Of a stretch of 22,641 nucleotides of DNA, positions 2 through 22,641 are shown one piece after another (within the stretch, counting starts at the first letter, position 1; every line of letters starts with the position of its first letter). The position numbers and the translations under genes are program-made. Origin of the DNA: a virus. Below the pieces are notes generated by a model, which was not told the origin of the DNA, did no database searches, and saw only the letters and a list, made by a program, of their open reading frames with translations. The stretch lies in IMG/VR virus record IMGVR_UViG_3300035438_000133, positions 1-22,641 of that record; one strand, 5' to 3'.

Positions 2-406
2 CCAAAAGTAAAAAAGTTTTTGCATAGTTTGATGCCATCGTTTATCAAACAGTTGGGATTGGTTAACAGCAAACGAGCAGTCCTAGTAAAGGTTACTAAA
101 GATTTGGAAGATGATTTCCAAGGTGCTACAATGAATATTGAGCTAGCCGATTGTATGATGGTATTGATTAAAGCACCAAAACGCCTTACACCCATAACAT
201 TAATGGAAATGTCTACTACATTAGCACACGAAATGGTGCATGTTAAACAATTGGCTAAAGGGCAAATGAAATTCCTCCCAAATGAAGCTAGGATTTGGAA
301 AGGTAAACGCTATTCCAAAAAAACAAAGTATTTGGACCAGCCTTGGGAATTGGATGCGTTCTCAAAACAAGAAATCCTGTTACGCAGGGCAATTGACACA
401 AAATAG
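2..406 (+). CDS. Putative zinc metallopeptidase-like protein, 5' end cut by window
   Basis: The frame is open to the left edge, so the gene probably begins upstream. Internal possible starts are TTG at 20 and ATG at 32, neither with a clear ribosome binding site. The protein carries HEMVHVKQ at 227-250, a classic HExxH zinc-binding and catalytic helix. About 35 residues later comes PWELDAF, whose Glu could be the third zinc ligand, as in SprT- or gluzincin-like phage peptidases. The N-terminal half is mixed and has no signal peptide, so a cytoplasmic or virion-associated role is more likely than export. I do not know its substrate. The next gene's promoter overlaps its last codons. The HExxH motif is clear; the enzyme assignment is inference. 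Confidence 0.6.
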   Translation, partial: PKVKKFLHSLMPSFIKQLGLVNSKRAVLVKVTKDLEDDFQGATMNIELADCMMVLIKAPKRLTPITLMEMSTTLAHEMVHVKQLAKGQMKFLPNEARIWKGKRYSKKTKYLDQPWELDAFSKQEILLRRAIDTK

Positions 407-421
407 AAGTTAGTGTATAAT
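393..421 (+). promoter_or_regulatory. Sigma70-type early promoter
   Basis: TTGACA (393-398), a 17-nt spacer and TATAAT (416-421) form a perfect consensus promoter. The upstream gene's stop codon (404-406) lies inside the spacer. Start of transcription is expected near 428, about 17 nt before the ATG at 445, whose TAGGAG ribosome binding site is at 434-439. The sequence from the -35 box onward closely resembles the promoters at 18592, 18872, 19249 and 22551. Confidence 0.8.
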
Positions 422-444
422 TACATTTTTACCTAGGAGTAAGT

Positions 445-15315: not shown

Positions 15316-15349
15316 AACAGCAATTCAACCAAAAGGAAAAATTGCTGTT
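15316..15349 (+). promoter_or_regulatory. Perfect 10-bp hairpin between late and early gp32 promoters
   Basis: AACAGCAATT (15316-15325) pairs with AATTGCTGTT (15340-15349) across a 14-nt loop. The right arm ends inside the -35 box of the next promoter. There is no U-run, so an intrinsic terminator is doubtful. It would form a 5'-terminal stem on the late gp32 mRNA. Confidence 0.5.
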
Positions 15350-15453: not shown

Positions 15454-16470
15454 ATGGCAACATCACTAGCAGAAATCCGCGCTCGCTTACTAGAGCAAGA
15501 CACACGTCAAAGCGGCAACAACAATCGCTCACAGGGCGACAACGGAATTTTTCCGTTCTGGAATATCCCAGAAAATTCAACTACAGTACTACGCTTTCTC
15601 CCAGATGGAGACGAGACAAATACTTTCCCATGGCGTGAACGCCAGATGATCCGACTAGAGTTCGCAGGAGTTCTGGGTGGAGACGAAAGCAAGAAAGTTA
15701 TTGTAACCGTTCCTTGTATGGAAATGTGGAAAGAAACTTGTCCTATCCATGCAGAGATTCGTCCTTGGTTCAAAGATAAATCTTTAGAAGATTTGGGTCG
15801 TAAGTACTGGAAGAAAAAATCTTATGTCTTCCAAGGTTTTGTAGTAGATACAAAACTACAAGAGGATACAACTCCGGAAAATCCAATCCGTAGATTCATT
15901 GTAAACCCAAGTATCTTTAACATTGTTAAAGGTGCGTTGATGGATCCGGAAATGGATAATCTGTTTACAGACTACGAGAACGGCACAGACTTCCGTTTGA
16001 CAAAGACAACTAAAGGTCAATACGCAGACTACAGCACAAGTAGCTTTGCTCGTAAAGAACGTGGCTTGAATGAAGTCGAACTACAGGCAGTTGCTGACAA
16101 AGGCTTGTTCAACTTGAATGACTTTATGCCTAAGAAGCCAACTAAAGAAGAAGTTGATATCATTTATGATATGTTCAAAGCCAGCGTTGATGGCGAGTTG
16201 TATGATCCTAAGCGTTGGGGTCAACATTTTAAACCAGCAGGTGTTAACCTTGGTAACTTAGGTGTAGCGTCAGATGTTGATGCCGCAGAGTCAAGTTTCA
16301 AAGCACCTGCTCCGGCAGCTCGTCCTAGTCCTGTAGCGGCTCCTAAGCCCACAGTAGTTGATGATGAAGATGACGCACCTTTTGAAACTGCTGATGCAAC
16401 AGCCGCACCAGAAGGCAAAAAGAATGTTAATGACATTCTTGCGATGATCCGTAATCGTCAGCAAAAGTAA
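15454..16470 (+). CDS. gp32: Single-stranded DNA-binding protein, T4 gp32-like
   Basis: 338 aa (T4: 301). It coats single-stranded DNA in replication, recombination and repair and works with UvsX/UvsY encoded just downstream. The N-terminus (SLAEIRARLLEQD) is the cooperativity segment. The OB-fold core includes GIFPFWNIPENSTTVLRFLPDGD and WRERQMIRLEF. A C88-x7-C96-x2-H99 cluster sits where T4 has its zinc site. RRFIVNPSIFNIVKGAL and DFRLTKTTKGQYADYSTSSF match the family. The C-terminal tail is Ala/Pro-rich then acidic (DDEDDAPFET), as expected for the partner-binding tail. AAGGA precedes the ATG. The leader carries promoter and hairpins, and a strong terminator follows. Confidence 0.92.
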   Translation: MATSLAEIRARLLEQDTRQSGNNNRSQGDNGIFPFWNIPENSTTVLRFLPDGDETNTFPWRERQMIRLEFAGVLGGDESKKVIVTVPCMEMWKETCPIHAEIRPWFKDKSLEDLGRKYWKKKSYVFQGFVVDTKLQEDTTPENPIRRFIVNPSIFNIVKGALMDPEMDNLFTDYENGTDFRLTKTTKGQYADYSTSSFARKERGLNEVELQAVADKGLFNLNDFMPKKPTKEEVDIIYDMFKASVDGELYDPKRWGQHFKPAGVNLGNLGVASDVDAAESSFKAPAPAARPSPVAAPKPTVVDDEDDAPFETADATAAPEGKKNVNDILAMIRNRQQK

Positions 16471-16471
16471 T

Positions 16472-16493
16472 AACAAGGGCTTCGGCCCTTGTT
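16472..16493 (+). terminator. Intrinsic terminator after gp32 (UUCG tetraloop)
   Basis: AACAAGGGC (16472-16480), loop TTCG, GCCCTTGTT (16485-16493): a 9-bp perfect stem closed by C-UUCG-G, the extra-stable tetraloop, with a short T-run overlapping its end. It starts 2 nt after the gp32 stop. Confidence 0.85.
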
Positions 16494-16532
16494 TAATCAA
16501 TGCTTAAAAAGCGTTTATTAACTAATAAGAAT

Positions 16533-16796
16533 ATGACACTACCAGACGAAAGATATCGGGCTGTAGCATCTGCCAGAGAATTGTTGATTGAAATAGCAAG
16601 CTCTAGTGGTAGATGGAAGCGTGTACCAAAAGAATTACGTGTATATTGTATGCATGCCTTACGCCATTATCCTACTCAGTATGATATGAAAGCCGCGGCA
16701 CGTGATGCACCTAATGTATTCCAAGAAAAAATAGAACCATTGACAAGAATGATTATGGTATACGATCAAGAACAAACGGAAGAAAAGGAAAATTAA
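16533..16796 (+). CDS. BPSL0761-family-like small protein
   Basis: 87 aa from ATG 16533. An earlier ATG at 16500 overlaps the end of the terminator, has no ribosome binding site and adds residues before the family start. MTLPDERYRAVASARELLIEI, followed later by ALRHYPTQYDMKAAARDAPNVF, strongly resembles the BPSL0761 family of short proteins in Burkholderiales. Those start MTMPDERTRAV and have a LLRHYP motif. I know no function for the family. The C-terminal extension (IEPLTRMIMVYDQEQTEEKEN) is acidic. The stop is 1 nt before uvsX, so the two are coupled. This is the best single clue to a beta-proteobacterial host. The match is from memory but covers most of the length. Confidence 0.7.
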   Translation: MTLPDERYRAVASARELLIEIASSSGRWKRVPKELRVYCMHALRHYPTQYDMKAAARDAPNVFQEKIEPLTRMIMVYDQEQTEEKEN

Positions 16797-16797
16797 T

Positions 16798-17874
16798 ATG
16801 ACAAAACCATTTGACGTAAGTAAATTTAGAAAAGAAATCACTAAGAGTATTGAAGGTCTTAGTATTGGTTTTAATGATCCTACAGATTGGATCAGCACAG
16901 GTAACTATACACTTAACTATTTGATTAGCGGCGACTTTTTCAAAGGCGTGCCTATGGGCAAGGTTACTGTATTTGCCGGAGAATCCGGTGCAGGTAAAAG
17001 TTATATCTGCTCAGGCAATCTTGTACGTCACGCACAAGAGCAAGGCATTTATGTTGTGCTTATTGATACAGAGAACGCACTAGACGAAGCGTGGCTTCAT
17101 GCACTTGGTGTAGATACCGGCGAAGATAAGTTGCTAAAACTTAATATGGCTATGATTGATGATGTGGCTATGACTATTACTAAGTTCGTAGCAGACTATA
17201 AGGCAATGGCAGAAGATGCTAGACCTAAAGTATTATTCGTAGTAGACAGTTTAGGTATGTTACTAACACCCACAGACGTTAATCAGTTCCAAGCTGGCGA
17301 TATGAAAGGTGACATGGGTCGTAAACCAAAAGCACTAACATCATTGGTTCGTAATACAGTTAATATGTTTGGCAACTTAAACATTGGTATGGTTTGTACT
17401 AATCACACTTATGCAAGTCAGGACATGTTTGATCCAGATGATAAGATCAGTGGCGGACAAGGCTTTATCTATGCAAGCTCTATTGTTGTTGCTATGCGTA
17501 AATTAAAACTTAAAGAAGATGAAGACGGCAACAAGACAGGCAGCCAAGTAATGGGTATTCGTGCTAGTTGTAAGATTATGAAAACTCGTTATTCTAAACC
17601 ATTCGAATCAGTTCATGTTAAGATTCCATATGCAACAGGTATGAGTCCTTACAGTGGCTTGTTTGACATGTTGGAAGAAAAAGGCAGTTTGAAGCGTGAA
17701 GGCAATAGTTATAGTTATGTAACTAAAGAAGGCGAGATCCTTAAGGCCATGCGTAAAGGTTGGAATAATGAGATGTTGGACAAAGCTATGGCAGATATTA
17801 TGCTTAGAGATTTGACAGCAGGAGTAAATACATCAGAAACAACACCCTTGGAGGATATTGAAGATGCTGTATGA
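16798..17874 (+). CDS. uvsX: UvsX, RecA-like strand-exchange recombinase
   Basis: 358 aa, against 391 in T4. It forms filaments on single-stranded DNA and catalyses pairing in recombination-dependent replication. Walker A is GESGAGKS (61-68), followed by an adenine-side region VVLIDTENALDEAWL. Walker B is VLFVVDS (Asp150). MGRKPKALTSLVRN and NIGMVCTNHTYASQDMFDPDDKISGGQG match the L1/L2 DNA-binding region of UvsX, where T4 also has few RecA-like residues. AAGGAAA lies upstream of the ATG within the previous gene. The stop overlaps the next gene's start region. Confidence 0.92.
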   Translation: MTKPFDVSKFRKEITKSIEGLSIGFNDPTDWISTGNYTLNYLISGDFFKGVPMGKVTVFAGESGAGKSYICSGNLVRHAQEQGIYVVLIDTENALDEAWLHALGVDTGEDKLLKLNMAMIDDVAMTITKFVADYKAMAEDARPKVLFVVDSLGMLLTPTDVNQFQAGDMKGDMGRKPKALTSLVRNTVNMFGNLNIGMVCTNHTYASQDMFDPDDKISGGQGFIYASSIVVAMRKLKLKEDEDGNKTGSQVMGIRASCKIMKTRYSKPFESVHVKIPYATGMSPYSGLFDMLEEKGSLKREGNSYSYVTKEGEILKAMRKGWNNEMLDKAMADIMLRDLTAGVNTSETTPLEDIEDAV

Positions 17875-18133
17875 TGAACAAGTTAATTTGATTGTAGATG
17901 TTTGGGCAACGGTTAAAACTTATATTGACAAGAAAGAACGCTATGATGCTGCCAGTGCATTTTTGCGTAGTTTAGAAAATCACTATGAAATGGATAGTGT
18001 TGCAGAAGAACTTCTCGGCAATGACGCTACATTGGATGCCGTAATTAAAGATTTGTATACTGCCGACGACATTGTAGATGACGAAGACAACTACGAAGAA
18101 GATAATTACGATTCAGACTACGACGACGAATGA
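17864..18133 (+). CDS. Small protein with highly acidic tail between uvsX and uvsY
   Basis: 89 aa from ATG 17864, which has GGAGG (17850-17854) 9 nt upstream inside uvsX; a TTG two codons earlier is less likely. Residues 1-70 are helical (YDEQVNLIVDVWATVKTYID, then DAASAFLRSLENHY). The last 25 residues are nearly all Asp, Glu, Tyr and Asn (DDEDNYEEDNYDSDYDDE), like a DNA-mimic or a gp32-style acidic tail. It overlaps uvsX by 11 nt and uvsY by ATGA, so it is co-translated with the recombination machinery. The function is unknown. A modulator of UvsX/UvsY/gp32 exchange on single-stranded DNA is an inference. Confidence 0.65.
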   Translation: MLYDEQVNLIVDVWATVKTYIDKKERYDAASAFLRSLENHYEMDSVAEELLGNDATLDAVIKDLYTADDIVDDEDNYEEDNYDSDYDDE

Positions 18134-18591
18134 GCACTTGGTATAGACGTGTTACTGGTAACTTAGGTGAGTTACCGGGTGCGATAGCCTACTACGAAAC
18201 CGAGTTACAAGATGCTAGGATTGAAACTAGTATCAAAGGTAATTTAGAATCTAATTCTAGACTTATGCCTGGAATAGTAGAACACAGATTTAACCAATTA
18301 CAAGAAGTCGAGGCTATACTTGAATTCCTAAACATCCAACTAAGAAAAAAACGAAGTGAGATGTTTAGGAAGTATACCGAAAACTACAATAGAACACTCA
18401 GTGATAGAAGCGCCGACAAGTATGTAGATGGCGATGATGAAGTAGTCGAGTGGCAAGTTCTTGTAAATGAGTTTGCTATGATTCGTAACAAGTATCTTGG
18501 CATCATGAAAGCCATTGATACCAAGCAATGGCAAATCACTAACATAGTCAAACTACGTGTAGCCGGTATGGATGATACGACTTTGGGTTAA
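18130..18591 (+). CDS. uvsY: UvsY-like recombination mediator
   Basis: 153 aa (T4 UvsY: 137). UvsY helps UvsX load on gp32-covered single-stranded DNA. The sequence is helical: RFNQLQEVEAILEFLNIQL, then RKKRSEMFRKYTENYNRTLS. SADKYVDGDDEVVEWQVLVN and EFAMIRNKYLGIMKAIDTKQ then WQITNIVKLRVAGMDD follow. The basic middle, the DRY-like region (here DRSADKYV) and the final helix align in order with T4 UvsY, and its location two genes behind uvsX supports the call. Overall identity to T4 is low, so the label rests on pattern and context. The TAA stop is joined directly to the next promoter's -35 box. Confidence 0.7.
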   Translation: MSTWYRRVTGNLGELPGAIAYYETELQDARIETSIKGNLESNSRLMPGIVEHRFNQLQEVEAILEFLNIQLRKKRSEMFRKYTENYNRTLSDRSADKYVDGDDEVVEWQVLVNEFAMIRNKYLGIMKAIDTKQWQITNIVKLRVAGMDDTTLG

Positions 18592-18620
18592 TTGACACAA
18601 AATCCTTTTTGCAGTATAAT
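18592..18620 (+). promoter_or_regulatory. Sigma70-type early promoter fused to uvsY stop codon
   Basis: TTGACA (18592-18597), 17-nt spacer, TATAAT (18615-18620). The -35 box follows the uvsY TAA with no spacing. Start expected near 18627. Confidence 0.85.
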
Positions 18621-18641
18621 ACATTATCGACAGCAAAAAGG
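18604..18641 (+). promoter_or_regulatory. Inverted repeat around -10 box, hiding ribosome binding site in read-through RNA
   Basis: CCTTTTTGC (18604-18612), in the promoter spacer, is complementary to GCAAAAAGG (18633-18641), which holds the AAGGA ribosome binding site for ATG 18650. RNA started at this promoter lacks the left arm; RNA reading through from uvsY contains both. Confidence 0.6.
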
Positions 18642-18649
18642 ACATCAAA

Positions 18650-18871
18650 ATGGAACTAGAAATCGGAACTAAAATTGTTTATACAAGTGCCGCAGGTACC
18701 CGTAATGCAGAAGTAGTTGGTATCAAAATTACCCCTACAGCAAAGCCAGGATTTCTTAATACTTTTGTTACACTTTTTGTCCCAGCACAAAACGGTGCCA
18801 AATTCGACACTCATACTACAATTTGTGCAGACAATGCCAGTCTCAAAATGTTTAAAGTAGCAGTCATTTAA
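18650..18871 (+). CDS. Small beta-rich early protein (73 aa), unknown
   Basis: Begins MELEIGTKIVYTSAAG. Alternating hydrophobic strands (KIVYTS, AEVVGIKI, FVTLFVP, MFKVAVI) suggest a small beta-barrel such as an SH3-like fold. No signal peptide; one Cys (Cys58). AAGGA sits 7 nt before the ATG in the right arm of the inverted repeat. It has its own consensus promoter, and its TAA stop is followed without spacing by the next gene's promoter. Such small early proteins often bind host factors. That is a general inference, with no direct evidence here. Confidence 0.65.
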   Translation: MELEIGTKIVYTSAAGTRNAEVVGIKITPTAKPGFLNTFVTLFVPAQNGAKFDTHTTICADNASLKMFKVAVI

Positions 18872-18900
18872 TTGACACAAATTGGTTTTGGTAGTATAAT
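18872..18900 (+). promoter_or_regulatory. Sigma70-type early promoter fused to stop codon
   Basis: TTGACA (18872-18877), 17-nt spacer, TATAAT (18895-18900), directly behind TAA 18869-18871. The -35 flank ACACAAATTGGT is shared with the promoter at 19249. Confidence 0.85.
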
Positions 18901-18930
18901 ATATACATACAGACACAAAAGGAGTTTACT

Positions 18931-19248
18931 ATGTTAGAAAGCACTAATATTTGGGGTATTAAACCTTTGCCTTTGGCAGAAGCAGTAGCCCGTGTTGAAG
19001 CAGGTCGTAAGCTCTATAATAAAAACACTGGAGAGCGTGTGGACTTTCGTGGCATAATTGAGATTATGGAAGAGAGTCAGCCAGAGTGCGGCACAGAACA
19101 AGACGCCGCTTGTCTTAATGCTTTAGGTAAAGACTATCAAAAAGCATTAAAACAGTTCCAAAAAGATTACCTTGCAAAATTGGCAAAAACAGCAGATCCT
19201 AAATTGGTCAAGTCTATTATAGAAGACCCGTTTGCGTTTGAAGAATAA
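18931..19248 (+). CDS. Small early protein (105 aa), unknown
   Basis: Begins MLESTNIWGIKPLPLAEAVA. Mixed fold: LAEAVARVEAGRKLY helix, short strands around RVDFRGII, then SQPECGTEQDAACLN with two Cys. A charged helical half (DYQKALKQFQKDYLAKLAK) ends DPFAFEE. No catalytic motif, signal or membrane segment. AAGGAG 8 nt before the ATG and a perfect promoter indicate strong early expression as a one-gene unit. Function not recognised. Confidence 0.65.
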   Translation: MLESTNIWGIKPLPLAEAVARVEAGRKLYNKNTGERVDFRGIIEIMEESQPECGTEQDAACLNALGKDYQKALKQFQKDYLAKLAKTADPKLVKSIIEDPFAFEE

Positions 19249-19277
19249 TTGACACAAATTGGTATCAGTGCTATAAT
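19249..19277 (+). promoter_or_regulatory. Sigma70-type early promoter fused to stop codon
   Basis: TTGACA (19249-19254), 17-nt spacer, TATAAT (19272-19277), directly behind TAA 19246-19248. The leader ends in AGGAGTTTTAAAATGGC (19299-19315), identical to that of the gene at 22609. Confidence 0.85.
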
Positions 19278-19310
19278 ACATACATAGCAACAAAACATAG
19301 GAGTTTTAAA

Positions 19311-20387
19311 ATGGCTAATGTAACTATTTTTGCAGGCGAGTATCGCGGCACAAAAGTTAAAAATGAAACATTCCGTTTAATGTCAGATGTTAAGACGGGT
19401 GCAAAAGGTTTGTATGTAACAGTACAAGACAATGGTACTCTTGGCTACAAAGGCAAGAGCGTTAAGGTTAAAATTAAAAGCATGGAGGATATCACAGTGA
19501 GTGGTCAAACTATTGCTGACATGTCAGATAGTCAGCGCAACAAAGCAAATAAAGACGTTAATGTCTTTTCTTTAGTAACTACTAAAGAGCCAGAAGTGTA
19601 CACAGAAACAGATGAGCAAGCTATTGAGCGCATCCGTGAACGCTTTGACATCCTAGATCAAATGGCAGAAGGCACTACAACAGGTGCAGTTCGTGCTATG
19701 ATTGTCAGTGGCCCTCCAGGCGTGGGTAAAAGCTACGGCGTTGAAAAGGTCTTAGAGCAAGCAAGTTTATTTGACAAAATGGCTAGCCGTAAAAACAGAT
19801 TTGAAGTTGTTAAAGGTGCAATGTCAGCATTGGGATTGTATGCAAAACTTTACAAGTTCTCAGACGAAGGTAACGTGTTAGTGTTTGACGACTGTGACAG
19901 CATCTTGCTTGACGACTTGTCGCTAAACATTTTGAAAGCCGCATTAGACAGTAGTAAGAAACGTTTCATCTCTTGGAACACTGACAGCAATATGTTGGGA
20001 CGTGAAGGCATTCCAGATCGTTTTGAATTTAAAGGTAGTGTGATTTTTATCACCAACATTAAGTTTGAGCACGTTCGCAGTAAAAAATTAAAAGACCATT
20101 TAGATGCATTGGAAAGCCGTTGTCACTATTTGGACTTGACAATGGACACACAACGTGACAAGTTCCTGCGTATTAAACAAATTGTACGTGACGGTATGTT
20201 GGACAGTTATGACTTTGAAGACCATGCCGCACAAGAGATTGTGGACTATATGTGGGAAATGAAAAGTCGTTTGCGTGAACTGTCATTGCGTACAGTTTTG
20301 AAGATTGCAGACTTGCGTAAGATGTCAGAACACAACTGGCGTCGTCTTGCAGAGACAACAATTTTGAAACGTGCAGAAGTGTGCTAA
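19311..20387 (+). CDS. AAA+ ATPase with beta-rich N-terminal domain
   Basis: 358 aa. Residues 1-75 are strand-rich (VTIFAGEYRG, GLYVTVQDNG, KVKIKSMEDI). The AAA+ module follows: Walker A GPPGVGKS (134-141), Walker B VLVFDDCD (Asp193/Asp194), sensor-1 Asn249 in VIFITN, and a likely arginine finger in LESRC (Arg270). In Walker B the usual catalytic Glu is Asp194. A helical lid with LRELSLRTVLKIADLRK ends the protein. It is a single-ring remodeller by family, substrate unknown. I recall similar ATPases in environmental T4-like phages. T4 gp44 clamp loader is an alternative, but the N-terminal domain and sequence do not fit. Own early promoter; terminator hairpin after the gene. Confidence 0.75.
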   Translation: MANVTIFAGEYRGTKVKNETFRLMSDVKTGAKGLYVTVQDNGTLGYKGKSVKVKIKSMEDITVSGQTIADMSDSQRNKANKDVNVFSLVTTKEPEVYTETDEQAIERIRERFDILDQMAEGTTTGAVRAMIVSGPPGVGKSYGVEKVLEQASLFDKMASRKNRFEVVKGAMSALGLYAKLYKFSDEGNVLVFDDCDSILLDDLSLNILKAALDSSKKRFISWNTDSNMLGREGIPDRFEFKGSVIFITNIKFEHVRSKKLKDHLDALESRCHYLDLTMDTQRDKFLRIKQIVRDGMLDSYDFEDHAAQEIVDYMWEMKSRLRELSLRTVLKIADLRKMSEHNWRRLAETTILKRAEVC

Positions 20388-20392
20388 ACAAA

Positions 20393-20428
20393 ACGAAGCC
20401 CAATTAATTGACGTTAATTGGGCTTTGT
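20393..20428 (+). terminator. Terminator-like hairpin carrying the next promoter's -35 box in its loop
   Basis: AAGCCCAATTAA (20396-20407) and TTAATTGGGCTT (20414-20425) form a 12-bp perfect stem with a 6-nt loop TTGACG. A G-U pair and two more base pairs can extend it to 20393-20428. The T-run is only three bases, so termination efficiency is uncertain. Confidence 0.6.
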
Positions 20429-20436
20429 GTTATACT
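20408..20436 (+). promoter_or_regulatory. Sigma70-type promoter for S8 protease
   Basis: TTGACG (20408-20413), 17-nt spacer, TATACT (20431-20436). One mismatch in each box, so weaker than neighbours. The -35 box is the loop of the preceding hairpin. AAGGAA lies before ATG 20466. Confidence 0.65.
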
Positions 20437-20465
20437 AACGTTATTAAACAACAAAAGGAATTCAA

Positions 20466-22550
20466 ATGAAATTCAAAACCACAGCAGTTACATTAGCAGT
20501 TTTAACATTGGCAGGTAGTGTGCAAGCACAAGTTTTTGCTAATAGAGAAGCAGAAACACAGACGAAATTTTTAACAGCCGTAGGTGCTCCGCAGGCATGG
20601 GCCCGTGGCATAACAGGTAAAGGTGTTATTATTGGTATCGTTGATAACGGTTTTGATCCGACTCACAGCGACATTAAAAAGAATGTTATCAGTCTTACTA
20701 ATACTAGCGCAATGAAGCTGGCCGCAGGTGTGCATGGTACTCAAATGGCAAGTATTGCCGCAGGATCCTTAGACGGTTGGGGAACTGTTGGCGTGGCACC
20801 CGATGCCAAACTAGTGTTGTTTCAAGCAGGAAGTTCCATTAGTTCGTCTACAGGCTTAGCAGGCACTGGTATCAACATGGAAGCAGTTCTTCGAGGAATG
20901 ACCTTGGCAGAACAGGCAGGCGCAAGTGTTATCAATCTTAGTTTAGGTTCAAACTTTGATCCTACTTTCCGTGCAACTACAGTCCAAGTTAGCCCAGGTA
21001 TCTTTCGAGCTCCTAGTAATTACAATAGTGTGTTTACAGGAGGCAAAAGTTATTTGTATGGTAACTCGATGAAAGATGTAGCGTCATTTGCTAACGCAAC
21101 TTCTAAGTCTGTTATTGTAGTGGCATCAGGTAATGCAGGAACAAAATATGCACAGGTGCCAGCGGCATTTGCCACACAAACTGATGCGAATGGTAACTTG
21201 CTCATGGGCGGTCGTGTGTTGATTGTTGGTAACGTGGTCGGTGACGGTAAAGGTGGCTGGACTATGAATGCTAGTAGCAACCAGGCAGGTACATTGTGTA
21301 ATAGTTTTACTGGCAATGTCTGTAATGACAAATACTATGTTAAAGACTTTTATGTAGTAGCACCAGGTACGGGTATGATGGGCGCGGTACCGGATGCGGG
21401 CAGAACTGCCGCGGCAATTAAAGCAGGTGGTACTAATGGCGTTGGTGGTGTAAGTGGTTCTAGTCCGGCAGCCGCAGTAGTAAGTGGTGGAGTCGCATTG
21501 TTAAAGCAAGCCTGGCCACAACTAAGTTCAGCACAGATGGTTCAGTTAGTTAAGACAACTGCCACAGACATGGGTGCTAAAGGCGTAGACGAAGTTTATG
21601 GTTGGGGCATGGTTAATTTTGATAAAGCTACACAGCCACAAGGTTTGCTTACTATTGCCAACTTTAAAGGTTACAATACAGCTATTCCTTTGACAGCCTC
21701 AGGTGTTGCGTCAAGCGGTAGTGCTAGTCTTAAAACGAGTAGTGTGCTACAGAATGTTCAAGGACTTGATAGTTACAATCGCAACTATACATTGGACATG
21801 ACCAAGGCAGTAATTGCTAATCCAGTGGCCGCATATCGTAGTTCTAGTTCTTATTTGGCAATGAGCCCAGCAGGCTACAATGAAGTGTCTGCTCCAGTAA
21901 ACGAAAACTACAGCATTAAGATGATGCAAAGCCAAACTGGTATTGCCAGTGAAGTTACTTACAGTGAACAAGGTGCTAGCTATAGTGTGCAGTTTGGTAG
22001 CATGACAGAGAAGTCAGGCTTCCTTGGCAACTACGGTAATGGTGCAATGGCATTTGGTGACAGCAGTACAAGTTATTTGCAATTAGGTACAGAACGTAAG
22101 TTTGGTAATGTAGCAGTATTTGGTAGTTATGGACTAGGTACCACCAGTACAGGAAGTGTGCAAGATAGTATGATCCAACTTGGTAACCGCATTAGTAGCC
22201 AAACTTGGAAACTAGGTGTTGCTAAGAACAATGTGTTCCAAGATAAAGATGCAGTGAGCCTAAGTGTAGTTAGTCCAGTAAGTGTGCGAAATGGTACGGC
22301 AACCGTAACAGGCGTCACTGGCTACGAGTTTACAGACAACGGCGATGGTGCAGATGCTAAGGCAATTGTTAGTACAGAGACAATCAGTCTGCGAGCACAA
22401 GTCAAGCCTATGGACTTGGTATTAGGTTATACTGTAATTGGTAAGGGCTATGACCGTGTAAATGTAAATGTTGCTAGACAATTTAACGTAGGCGGTATTG
22501 CAGGCAATACAGCTAACAGCATTGGTGTTATGGCAGTTAAATCGTTCTAA
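20466..22550 (+). CDS. Exported subtilisin-like (S8) serine protease with autotransporter-like C-terminus
   Basis: 694 aa. Sec signal peptide (MKFKTTAVTLAVLTLAGSVQA), cleavage near residue 21. S8 catalytic set: Asp60 in GIVDNGFD, His90 in GVHGTQMAS, oxyanion Asn223 in ASGNAG and Ser333 in GSSPAAAVVSGGVALL, where the usual GTS is GSS. The catalytic domain ends near residue 395 (GWGMVNFDKA). The remaining 300 residues are strand-rich, with alternating aromatic and small residues, and stop on GVMAVKSF. A terminal Phe is typical of outer-membrane barrels and autotransporters. It should act in the periplasm or at the outer surface of the infected cell. Roles such as trimming receptors or host defence proteins are inference. 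The promoter is sigma70-like; RBS AAGGAA. The stop is fused to the next promoter. Confidence 0.8.
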   Translation: MKFKTTAVTLAVLTLAGSVQAQVFANREAETQTKFLTAVGAPQAWARGITGKGVIIGIVDNGFDPTHSDIKKNVISLTNTSAMKLAAGVHGTQMASIAAGSLDGWGTVGVAPDAKLVLFQAGSSISSSTGLAGTGINMEAVLRGMTLAEQAGASVINLSLGSNFDPTFRATTVQVSPGIFRAPSNYNSVFTGGKSYLYGNSMKDVASFANATSKSVIVVASGNAGTKYAQVPAAFATQTDANGNLLMGGRVLIVGNVVGDGKGGWTMNASSNQAGTLCNSFTGNVCNDKYYVKDFYVVAPGTGMMGAVPDAGRTAAAIKAGGTNGVGGVSGSSPAAAVVSGGVALLKQAWPQLSSAQMVQLVKTTATDMGAKGVDEVYGWGMVNFDKATQPQGLLTIANFKGYNTAIPLTASGVASSGSASLKTSSVLQNVQGLDSYNRNYTLDMTKAVIANPVAAYRSSSSYLAMSPAGYNEVSAPVNENYSIKMMQSQTGIASEVTYSEQGASYSVQFGSMTEKSGFLGNYGNGAMAFGDSSTSYLQLGTERKFGNVAVFGSYGLGTTSTGSVQDSMIQLGNRISSQTWKLGVAKNNVFQDKDAVSLSVVSPVSVRNGTATVTGVTGYEFTDNGDGADAKAIVSTETISLRAQVKPMDLVLGYTVIGKGYDRVNVNVARQFNVGGIAGNTANSIGVMAVKSF

Positions 22551-22579
22551 TTGACATAAATTGAGTTCAGTGTTATAAT
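22551..22579 (+). promoter_or_regulatory. Sigma70-type early promoter fused to stop codon
   Basis: TTGACA (22551-22556), 17-nt spacer, TATAAT (22574-22579), immediately behind TAA 22548-22550. Same layout as at 18592, 18872 and 19249. Confidence 0.85.
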
Positions 22580-22608
22580 TAATTTTTAAACAAAACAGGA
22601 GTTTTAAA

Positions 22609-22641
22609 ATGGCAAAGAGTAATGTAATGGCACTTAAAGTG
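22609..22641 (+). CDS. Early gene cut by right edge (first 11 codons)
   Basis: ATG 22609 follows AGGAG and reads MAKSNVMALKV to the end of the window. The promoter and an identical 17-nt RBS/start block shared with the AAA+ gene show it is a real early gene. Too little is present to name it. Confidence 0.65.
   Translation, partial: MAKSNVMALKV

Follow-up and report, generated by a model that had tools for sequence, protein, structure and literature searches.

Large phages turn over many small accessory genes, and how they do so with expression kept intact is an open question. In the phage DNA analysed here, the stop codons of four genes are joined directly to the promoters that follow them. 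The window, meaning the whole stretch of DNA that was analysed, is an entire IMG/VR virus record of 22,641 bases. The record covers part of the genome of a T4-like myovirus bearing uvsX and uvsY, whose T4-type hallmarks comprise a terminase, a contractile sheath, a gp32-like single-stranded DNA-binding protein, UvsX, and UvsY. Because the window is the whole 22.6-kb record, relatives were used for the wider test. The AAA gene and uvsX each retrieved 80 loci, and nine long contigs from relatives, the largest of 233 kb, were analysed in full, with genes called by a home-made caller based on a codon-hexamer model.

Four stop codons in the window are fused to promoters

The window holds four copies of the string TAATTGACA, all on the plus strand (at 18589, 18869, 19246, and 22548), compared to a mean of 0.43 copies in shuffled sequence, where none of 100 shuffles reached four. 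In each copy the TAA is the in-frame stop codon of a gene (18130-18591, 18650-18871, 18931-19248, and 20466-22550), and TTGACA, a 17-nt spacer, and TATAAT adjoin all four stops with zero spacing, which confirms the fusions described in the earlier note. Perfect promoters of the form TTGACA-N15-19-TATAAT number six in the window against 0.01 expected, and four of the six are fused to stops. The two unfused ones begin at 393, where the promoter runs over the end of the preceding gene (TAG stop at 404-406), and at 15348, where it has an 18-nt spacer and lies 48 nt downstream of a stop. Chance placement of promoters is ruled out by these counts, together with those for upstream gene families given below. 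The features concerned are as follows.

391 to 444, plus strand: promoter of the same family, starting at 393, with CAA replacing TAA; kept in five relatives
18130 to 18591, plus strand: gene for a UvsY-like recombination mediator (PHROG 231, E 4.5e-18), conserved in relatives; left anchor of the variable array, with its TAA stop fused to linker 1
18588 to 18649, plus strand: linker 1, T-TAA-TTGACA-17-TATAAT-UTR-RBS
18650 to 18871, plus strand: cassette gene w73, 73 amino acids, no family match, flanked on both sides by linkers
18869 to 18930, plus strand: linker 2, joining the w73 stop to the w105 promoter; 18 nt identical to linker 3
18931 to 19248, plus strand: cassette gene w105, 105 amino acids, no family match, cleanly missing in relative L126
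19246 to 19310, plus strand: linker 3, joining the w105 stop to the promoter of the AAA gene
19311 to 20387, plus strand: gene for an AAA-ATPase-like protein (PHROG 1250), anchoring the array on its right side
20394 to 20436, plus strand: hairpin form of the element, AAGCCCAATTAATTGACGTTAATTGGGCTT (z = -4.8)
20466 to 22550, plus strand: S8 subtilase gene with a signal peptide and a predicted C-terminal barrel, its stop fused to linker 4
22547 to 22608, plus strand: linker 4 (TAATTGACATAAATTGAG...), preceding a gene cut by the window end

The earlier note had also placed a recurrence of the string at 20406, behind a hairpin. An element is present there, but it lies inside the hairpin, and the string is TAATTGACG at 20405-20413. 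Its -35 box, TTGACG, begins 20 nt past the stop of the AAA gene within the stem-loop and is followed by TATACT. In folding predictions the four fused linkers barely exceeded shuffled sequence (z -0.2 to -1.6).

The common element is a linker of about 60 nt that includes the stop codon

The repeat at the junctions is real, as first noticed, but confinement to 9 bp is ruled out: what unrelated genes have in common is a linker of about 60 nt that extends to the start codon, TTAA-TTGACACAAATTGG...TATAATACATACATAG...AACAAAACAGGAG-ATG. In an alignment of 58 distinct gene pairs (36 upstream and 45 downstream families), conservation sets in sharply at T(-4), which is T in 76% of cases and at background at other TAA genes. 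The sequence logo is strongly conserved from T(-4)TAA to TTGACAYAAATTGG and near background upstream, and across the 58 pairs the conserved order is TAA, TTGACA, CAAATTGG, a partly conserved spacer, TATAAT, ACATACATAG, and AACAAAACAGGAG. Spacer and leader vary much from one linker to another. Linkers within one contig were more alike than linkers from different contigs (0.726 versus 0.700, p = 0.002), which is a weak signal and not the strong concerted evolution within a genome that was considered.

Across ten contigs including the window, 55 promoters (at least 11 of 12 matches) begin right at the upstream stop, all of them at TAA; the next offset peak is at -4, where the stop is a TGA within TTGACA, and the remainder are scattered. 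In the larger set of nine relatives and about 120 shorter loci, each upstream gene family was counted once per offset, and the null was a uniform spread over offsets -20 to +60. Here 37 upstream families fall at offset 0 against about two expected, followed by 27 at -4 and 11 at +1, of 168 in the range. Promoters at random distances from stops, which the earlier note had set against its own proposal, are thus not what these genomes contain.

The TAA is kept even where it does not end a gene. In 19 family promoters the upstream stop is the overlapping TGA in TTGACA, and 10 of these still have TAA ahead of the -35 box; so do 16 of 45 promoters at other offsets, some of them in hairpins. A scan of IMG/VR in which the TAA was left unspecified placed it ahead of 23 of 29 AAATTGG sites. 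Since the TAA is kept when another frame supplies the stop, it is part of the DNA element, and its retention merely as a stop codon is ruled out. Judged from its sequence, the linker carries its own stop codon.

Gene content between linkers differs among relatives

The interval from uvsY to the AAA gene holds from none to about eight different small genes in relatives. Contents include w73; w73 and w105; w73 and c127; c129 and w73; c85 and c60; c92; c69, c52, and c51; and others. These small genes are mostly linked by linkers of 55 to 62 nt, and in closer relatives nearly all are. The earlier note had expected that relatives keeping the same genes in the same order would speak against cassette exchange, and the gene sets between uvsY and AAA differ instead. 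Sixty families were found in this interval, half of which (30 of 60) also occur elsewhere, one such location being a second linker-rich region in contigs G004, G009, and G001. Nine cassette-gene families were searched, with one match, to a PHROG of unknown function, and none in Pfam. Single genes are gained, lost, and replaced between TAATTGACA junctions, as a one-gene cassette system implies, but the unit is not always one gene: 37 of 64 intervals between successive linkers contain a single gene. Seventeen families have linkers on both sides.

Where the upstream protein was 80-90% identical, gene adjacency was kept across 14% of linkers, compared to 54% of promoterless junctions; most raw turnover counts stem from the uvsY junction. 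Averaged by family, adjacency was 0.39 at linkers versus 0.64 at non-linker junctions genome-wide (p = 0.004), and 0.53 at non-linker junctions within three genes of a linker, a difference that was not significant (p = 0.12). Because turnover at linkers does not significantly exceed that at nearby junctions, the whole region is plastic.

Homology to relatives often starts at the stop codon

Among alignments covering the downstream gene, 42% at linkers start within 3 nt of the stop, compared to 2% at other gaps of at least 20 nt. The commonest start at linkers is the first base of the stop codon, and in the window, homology to most compared relatives begins in linker 3 at the T of TAA (19246). 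Upstream, the place where homology is lost varies among several points inside the linker. At non-linker gaps near linkers, 21% of alignments start at the stop, which again points to a plastic neighbourhood.

The loss of w105 in relative L126 places one join precisely. Homology to the window covers 16179-18909 and 19246-22635 with a 41-nt overlap, and w105 is missing. The join falls in the 18-nt repeat that starts with TAATTGACA; downstream of the common 18 nt, TAATTGACACAAATTGGT, the L126 linker is linker 3 of the window except for three bases. Four distinct comparisons differ by the presence or absence of one cassette. In all four the leader of the joined linker is closer to the linker of the downstream gene, and in three the spacer is too, with one tie. 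The same holds for linkers at large: those with the same downstream gene have similarities of 0.52 (spacer) and 0.60 (leader), compared to 0.41 and 0.40 for linkers that share the upstream gene, and 0.42 and 0.35 for linkers that share neither. The linker tracks its downstream gene, and the exchanged unit therefore appears to be promoter, ribosome binding site (RBS), and gene, with the break near the 5' end of the linker. If selection keeps the fused stop and promoter while genes are exchanged by another route, alignments would be expected to begin at TAA as well. Of the cassette recombination that the earlier note proposed, the swaps, the breaks at TAA, and the L126 join within the 18-nt repeat are all seen; the recombination step itself we infer by comparison.

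Linkers following uvsY are predicted to mask the Shine-Dalgarno sequence in read-through RNA

In linker 1, which follows uvsY, the promoter spacer sequence CCTTTTTGC could base-pair with GCAAAAAGG at the Shine-Dalgarno sequence. The same pairing occurs after uvsY in L137 (TTGGACTC/GAGTCCAA) and in L128 (GGATCCTTT/AAAGGAGTCC). Predicted accessibility of the Shine-Dalgarno sequence in uvsY linkers is 0.37 in read-through RNA versus 0.54 with swapped spacers (sd 0.02), and 0.60 in RNA from the linker's own promoter; as the uvsY-linker sequences are related, this pairing effect is not fully independent evidence. Thus, the RBS is predicted to be masked in read-through RNA and free in RNA that starts at the linker's own promoter. 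The remaining linkers had no such effect (0.51 unpaired versus 0.49 with swapped spacers), and RBS sequestration as a general property of linkers is ruled out, since it is seen only on the uvsY side. Sequestration of the RBS in read-through transcripts has been described for T4 gene e, soc, and I-TevI (PMC3014915, PMC2988022). The uvsY linkers resemble these cases in having an RBS predicted to be hidden in read-through RNA. They differ in having sigma70-type promoters, in standing at the entrance of a cassette array, and in that their effect is a prediction only.

Proposed exchange at stop-containing linkers and alternative explanations

We favor homology-mediated exchange of promoter-RBS-gene units at the stop-containing linkers, to which we assign a probability of roughly 0.7. 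In each linker, TTAA would close the upstream gene, and the -35 box of a strong sigma70-like promoter would start at the base that follows; a conserved leader and a Shine-Dalgarno sequence complete the linker. A gene set between two linkers would therefore have a proper end and be transcribed and translated independently of the genes beside it. As the first 17-18 nt or so (TAATTGACACAAATTGG) are the same in all linkers, homologous recombination between two linkers, in one genome or in co-infecting phages, could delete, insert, or replace a promoter-RBS-gene unit harmlessly. Linker homology would then drive the exchange, probably via the phage's own UvsX/UvsY system. The sigma70-like consensus suggests that the promoters are early ones read by host RNA polymerase, and the cassette genes may be dispensable host-interaction genes. 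It is an even bet whether the fuller picture also holds, in which a self-contained stop-promoter-RBS linker, with a crossover repeat of about 18 bp comprising stop codon and -35 box, makes genes interchangeable single parts, at least 60 families of small genes move as a common pool among several array sites of this phage group, and the first linker past the recombination operon shields the array from read-through by masking the ribosome site.

Regulatory standardisation would account for the linkers differently: genes enter this plastic region by illegitimate recombination, and selection then converges on one strong and compact promoter-RBS design, with TAA adjoining the -35 box as TTAATTGACA because this is a preferred promoter context and because short genes shed spare sequence. 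Retention of TAA as DNA even out of frame fits this explanation, as do the plasticity of the entire region, at linkers and non-linkers alike, and the great differences in spacer and leader among linkers. Yet the non-promoter AAATTGG and leader motifs are conserved too, the joins in L126 and elsewhere fall within the common repeat, and linkers are slightly more alike within a contig; we regard standardisation as unlikely, if still worth weighing. In another explanation, TTAATTGACACAAATTGG is a DNA-binding site instead of a recombination element: it resembles an inverted repeat (AATT...AATT, with CCAATTAATTGACACAAATTGG in its hairpin versions) and would serve as operator for a phage-encoded regulator of a regulon of small genes, the position at the stop being a by-product. 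The half-palindrome around the -35 box is indeed conserved, and at some sites there are hairpin forms with complementary arms, but an operator alone leaves the exact stop fusion in 37 families and the turnover of single genes unexplained. We consider it improbable as the whole explanation; an operator role could coexist with linker exchange. Each promoter-gene unit could also be an independent acquisition of foreign origin, as lambdoid morons are, which agrees with the movement of the linker with its downstream gene. To our knowledge, however, morons have no single linker in common, whereas here 58 distinct gene pairs carry one and the same linker and different array sites have gene families in common, which makes separate insertion very improbable.

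Relation to known phage elements

T4-type phages reportedly carry promoter-early stem-loop (PeSL) cassettes, attributed to Arbiol et al. 2010 and Comeau et al. 2014; PeSL is said to be a repeated composite element, proposed as a recombination exchange point between small non-conserved genes. The RB49 elements, whose sequence we read, have a stem-loop in the promoter spacer (TTGACA-GGGGATC...GATCCCC-TATAMT) and lie 5-13 nt past the stop; small genes there are separated by about 60-90 nt. The window phage is likewise T4-like, its linkers repeat a sigma70-like promoter between small variable genes, and relatives differ by gene insertions, deletions, and swaps with breaks at the element. Unlike PeSL, four of five sites in the window have no stem-loop, only the element at 20394 having a strong hairpin, and the linker is dissimilar in sequence to that of RB49 and has the stop codon built in. 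The linker acts like PeSL but, without the stem-loop, is not classed as PeSL. Gene shuffling at such elements has already been described in kind; the stop-containing linker form is new. A passage of PMC4503421 cites the two papers named above on PeSL cassettes.

In Cluster K mycobacteriophages, start-associated sequences (SAS/ESAS) are short repeats located where small genes of different kinds begin, within the non-structural half of the genome, and they sometimes include the upstream stop codon (PMC3203893). The linker is similarly repeated ahead of unrelated small genes and holds the upstream stop. SAS differs in being a 13-mer centred on the RBS, in having no -35/-10 promoter joined to a stop, and in belonging to unrelated phages. 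The GGGATAGGAGCCC-type start-codon motif of SAS was not found in the linker, whose RBS region reads AACAAAACAGGAGTT.

Distribution of the linker

The system is unusually clean in its parts, with one short linker, a fixed insertion interval bounded by conserved genes, dozens of naturally occurring variants, and a putative crossover interval. The linker would also offer a handle for finding small phage genes that change fast, which are known to include many with host-takeover and counter-defence functions. We found no good match to the linker among 50,697 records of isolated phages and no match in 84,980 species genomes searched for cellular and prophage copies. The string TAATTGACA is absent from RB49, Phi1, and T4, and in PA5oct and 121Q it does not exceed the backwards control. 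The exact linker form with TATAAT is present in 83 stretches of IMG/VR, and KVP40 has six copies of TAATTGACA compared to two in the control.

A phage-encoded subtilase with a predicted C-terminal barrel

20466-22550 (+), phage-encoded S8 subtilase with a signal peptide and a predicted C-terminal barrel

The signal peptide of this protein is conserved, and phenylalanine is the C-terminal residue in all intact relatives. In the predicted structure, the subtilisin domain is followed by approximately 12 long strands that resemble an autotransporter barrel. The top PDB profile match was the Serratia autotransporter Ssp (8e7f). Phages do not usually encode proteases that are secreted or located at the surface.

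Other features of the window and its relatives

2-406, putative small metallopeptidase carrying an HExxH-like motif (L149:8055-8453 in a related contig)

The position of this gene is fixed in most relatives, but in L149 it lies within the variable small-gene array between uvsY and the AAA-ATPase-like gene and has a linker in front.

At two sites in related contigs (G001:102207 and G002:76112; L290 and L306), the spacer of the linker promoter contributes one arm to a hairpin resembling a terminator (AATTCTCTATAC...GTATAGAGAATTTTTT). Such a structure would end transcription arriving from upstream while sparing that of the linker promoter itself. Close to the AAA gene, the more distant relatives L181, L182, L184, L186, and L188 carry a different repeated promoter, possibly a parallel linker system, whose spacer contains the inverted repeat TTGACAATAAATCCAATTTATTGTATAAT.
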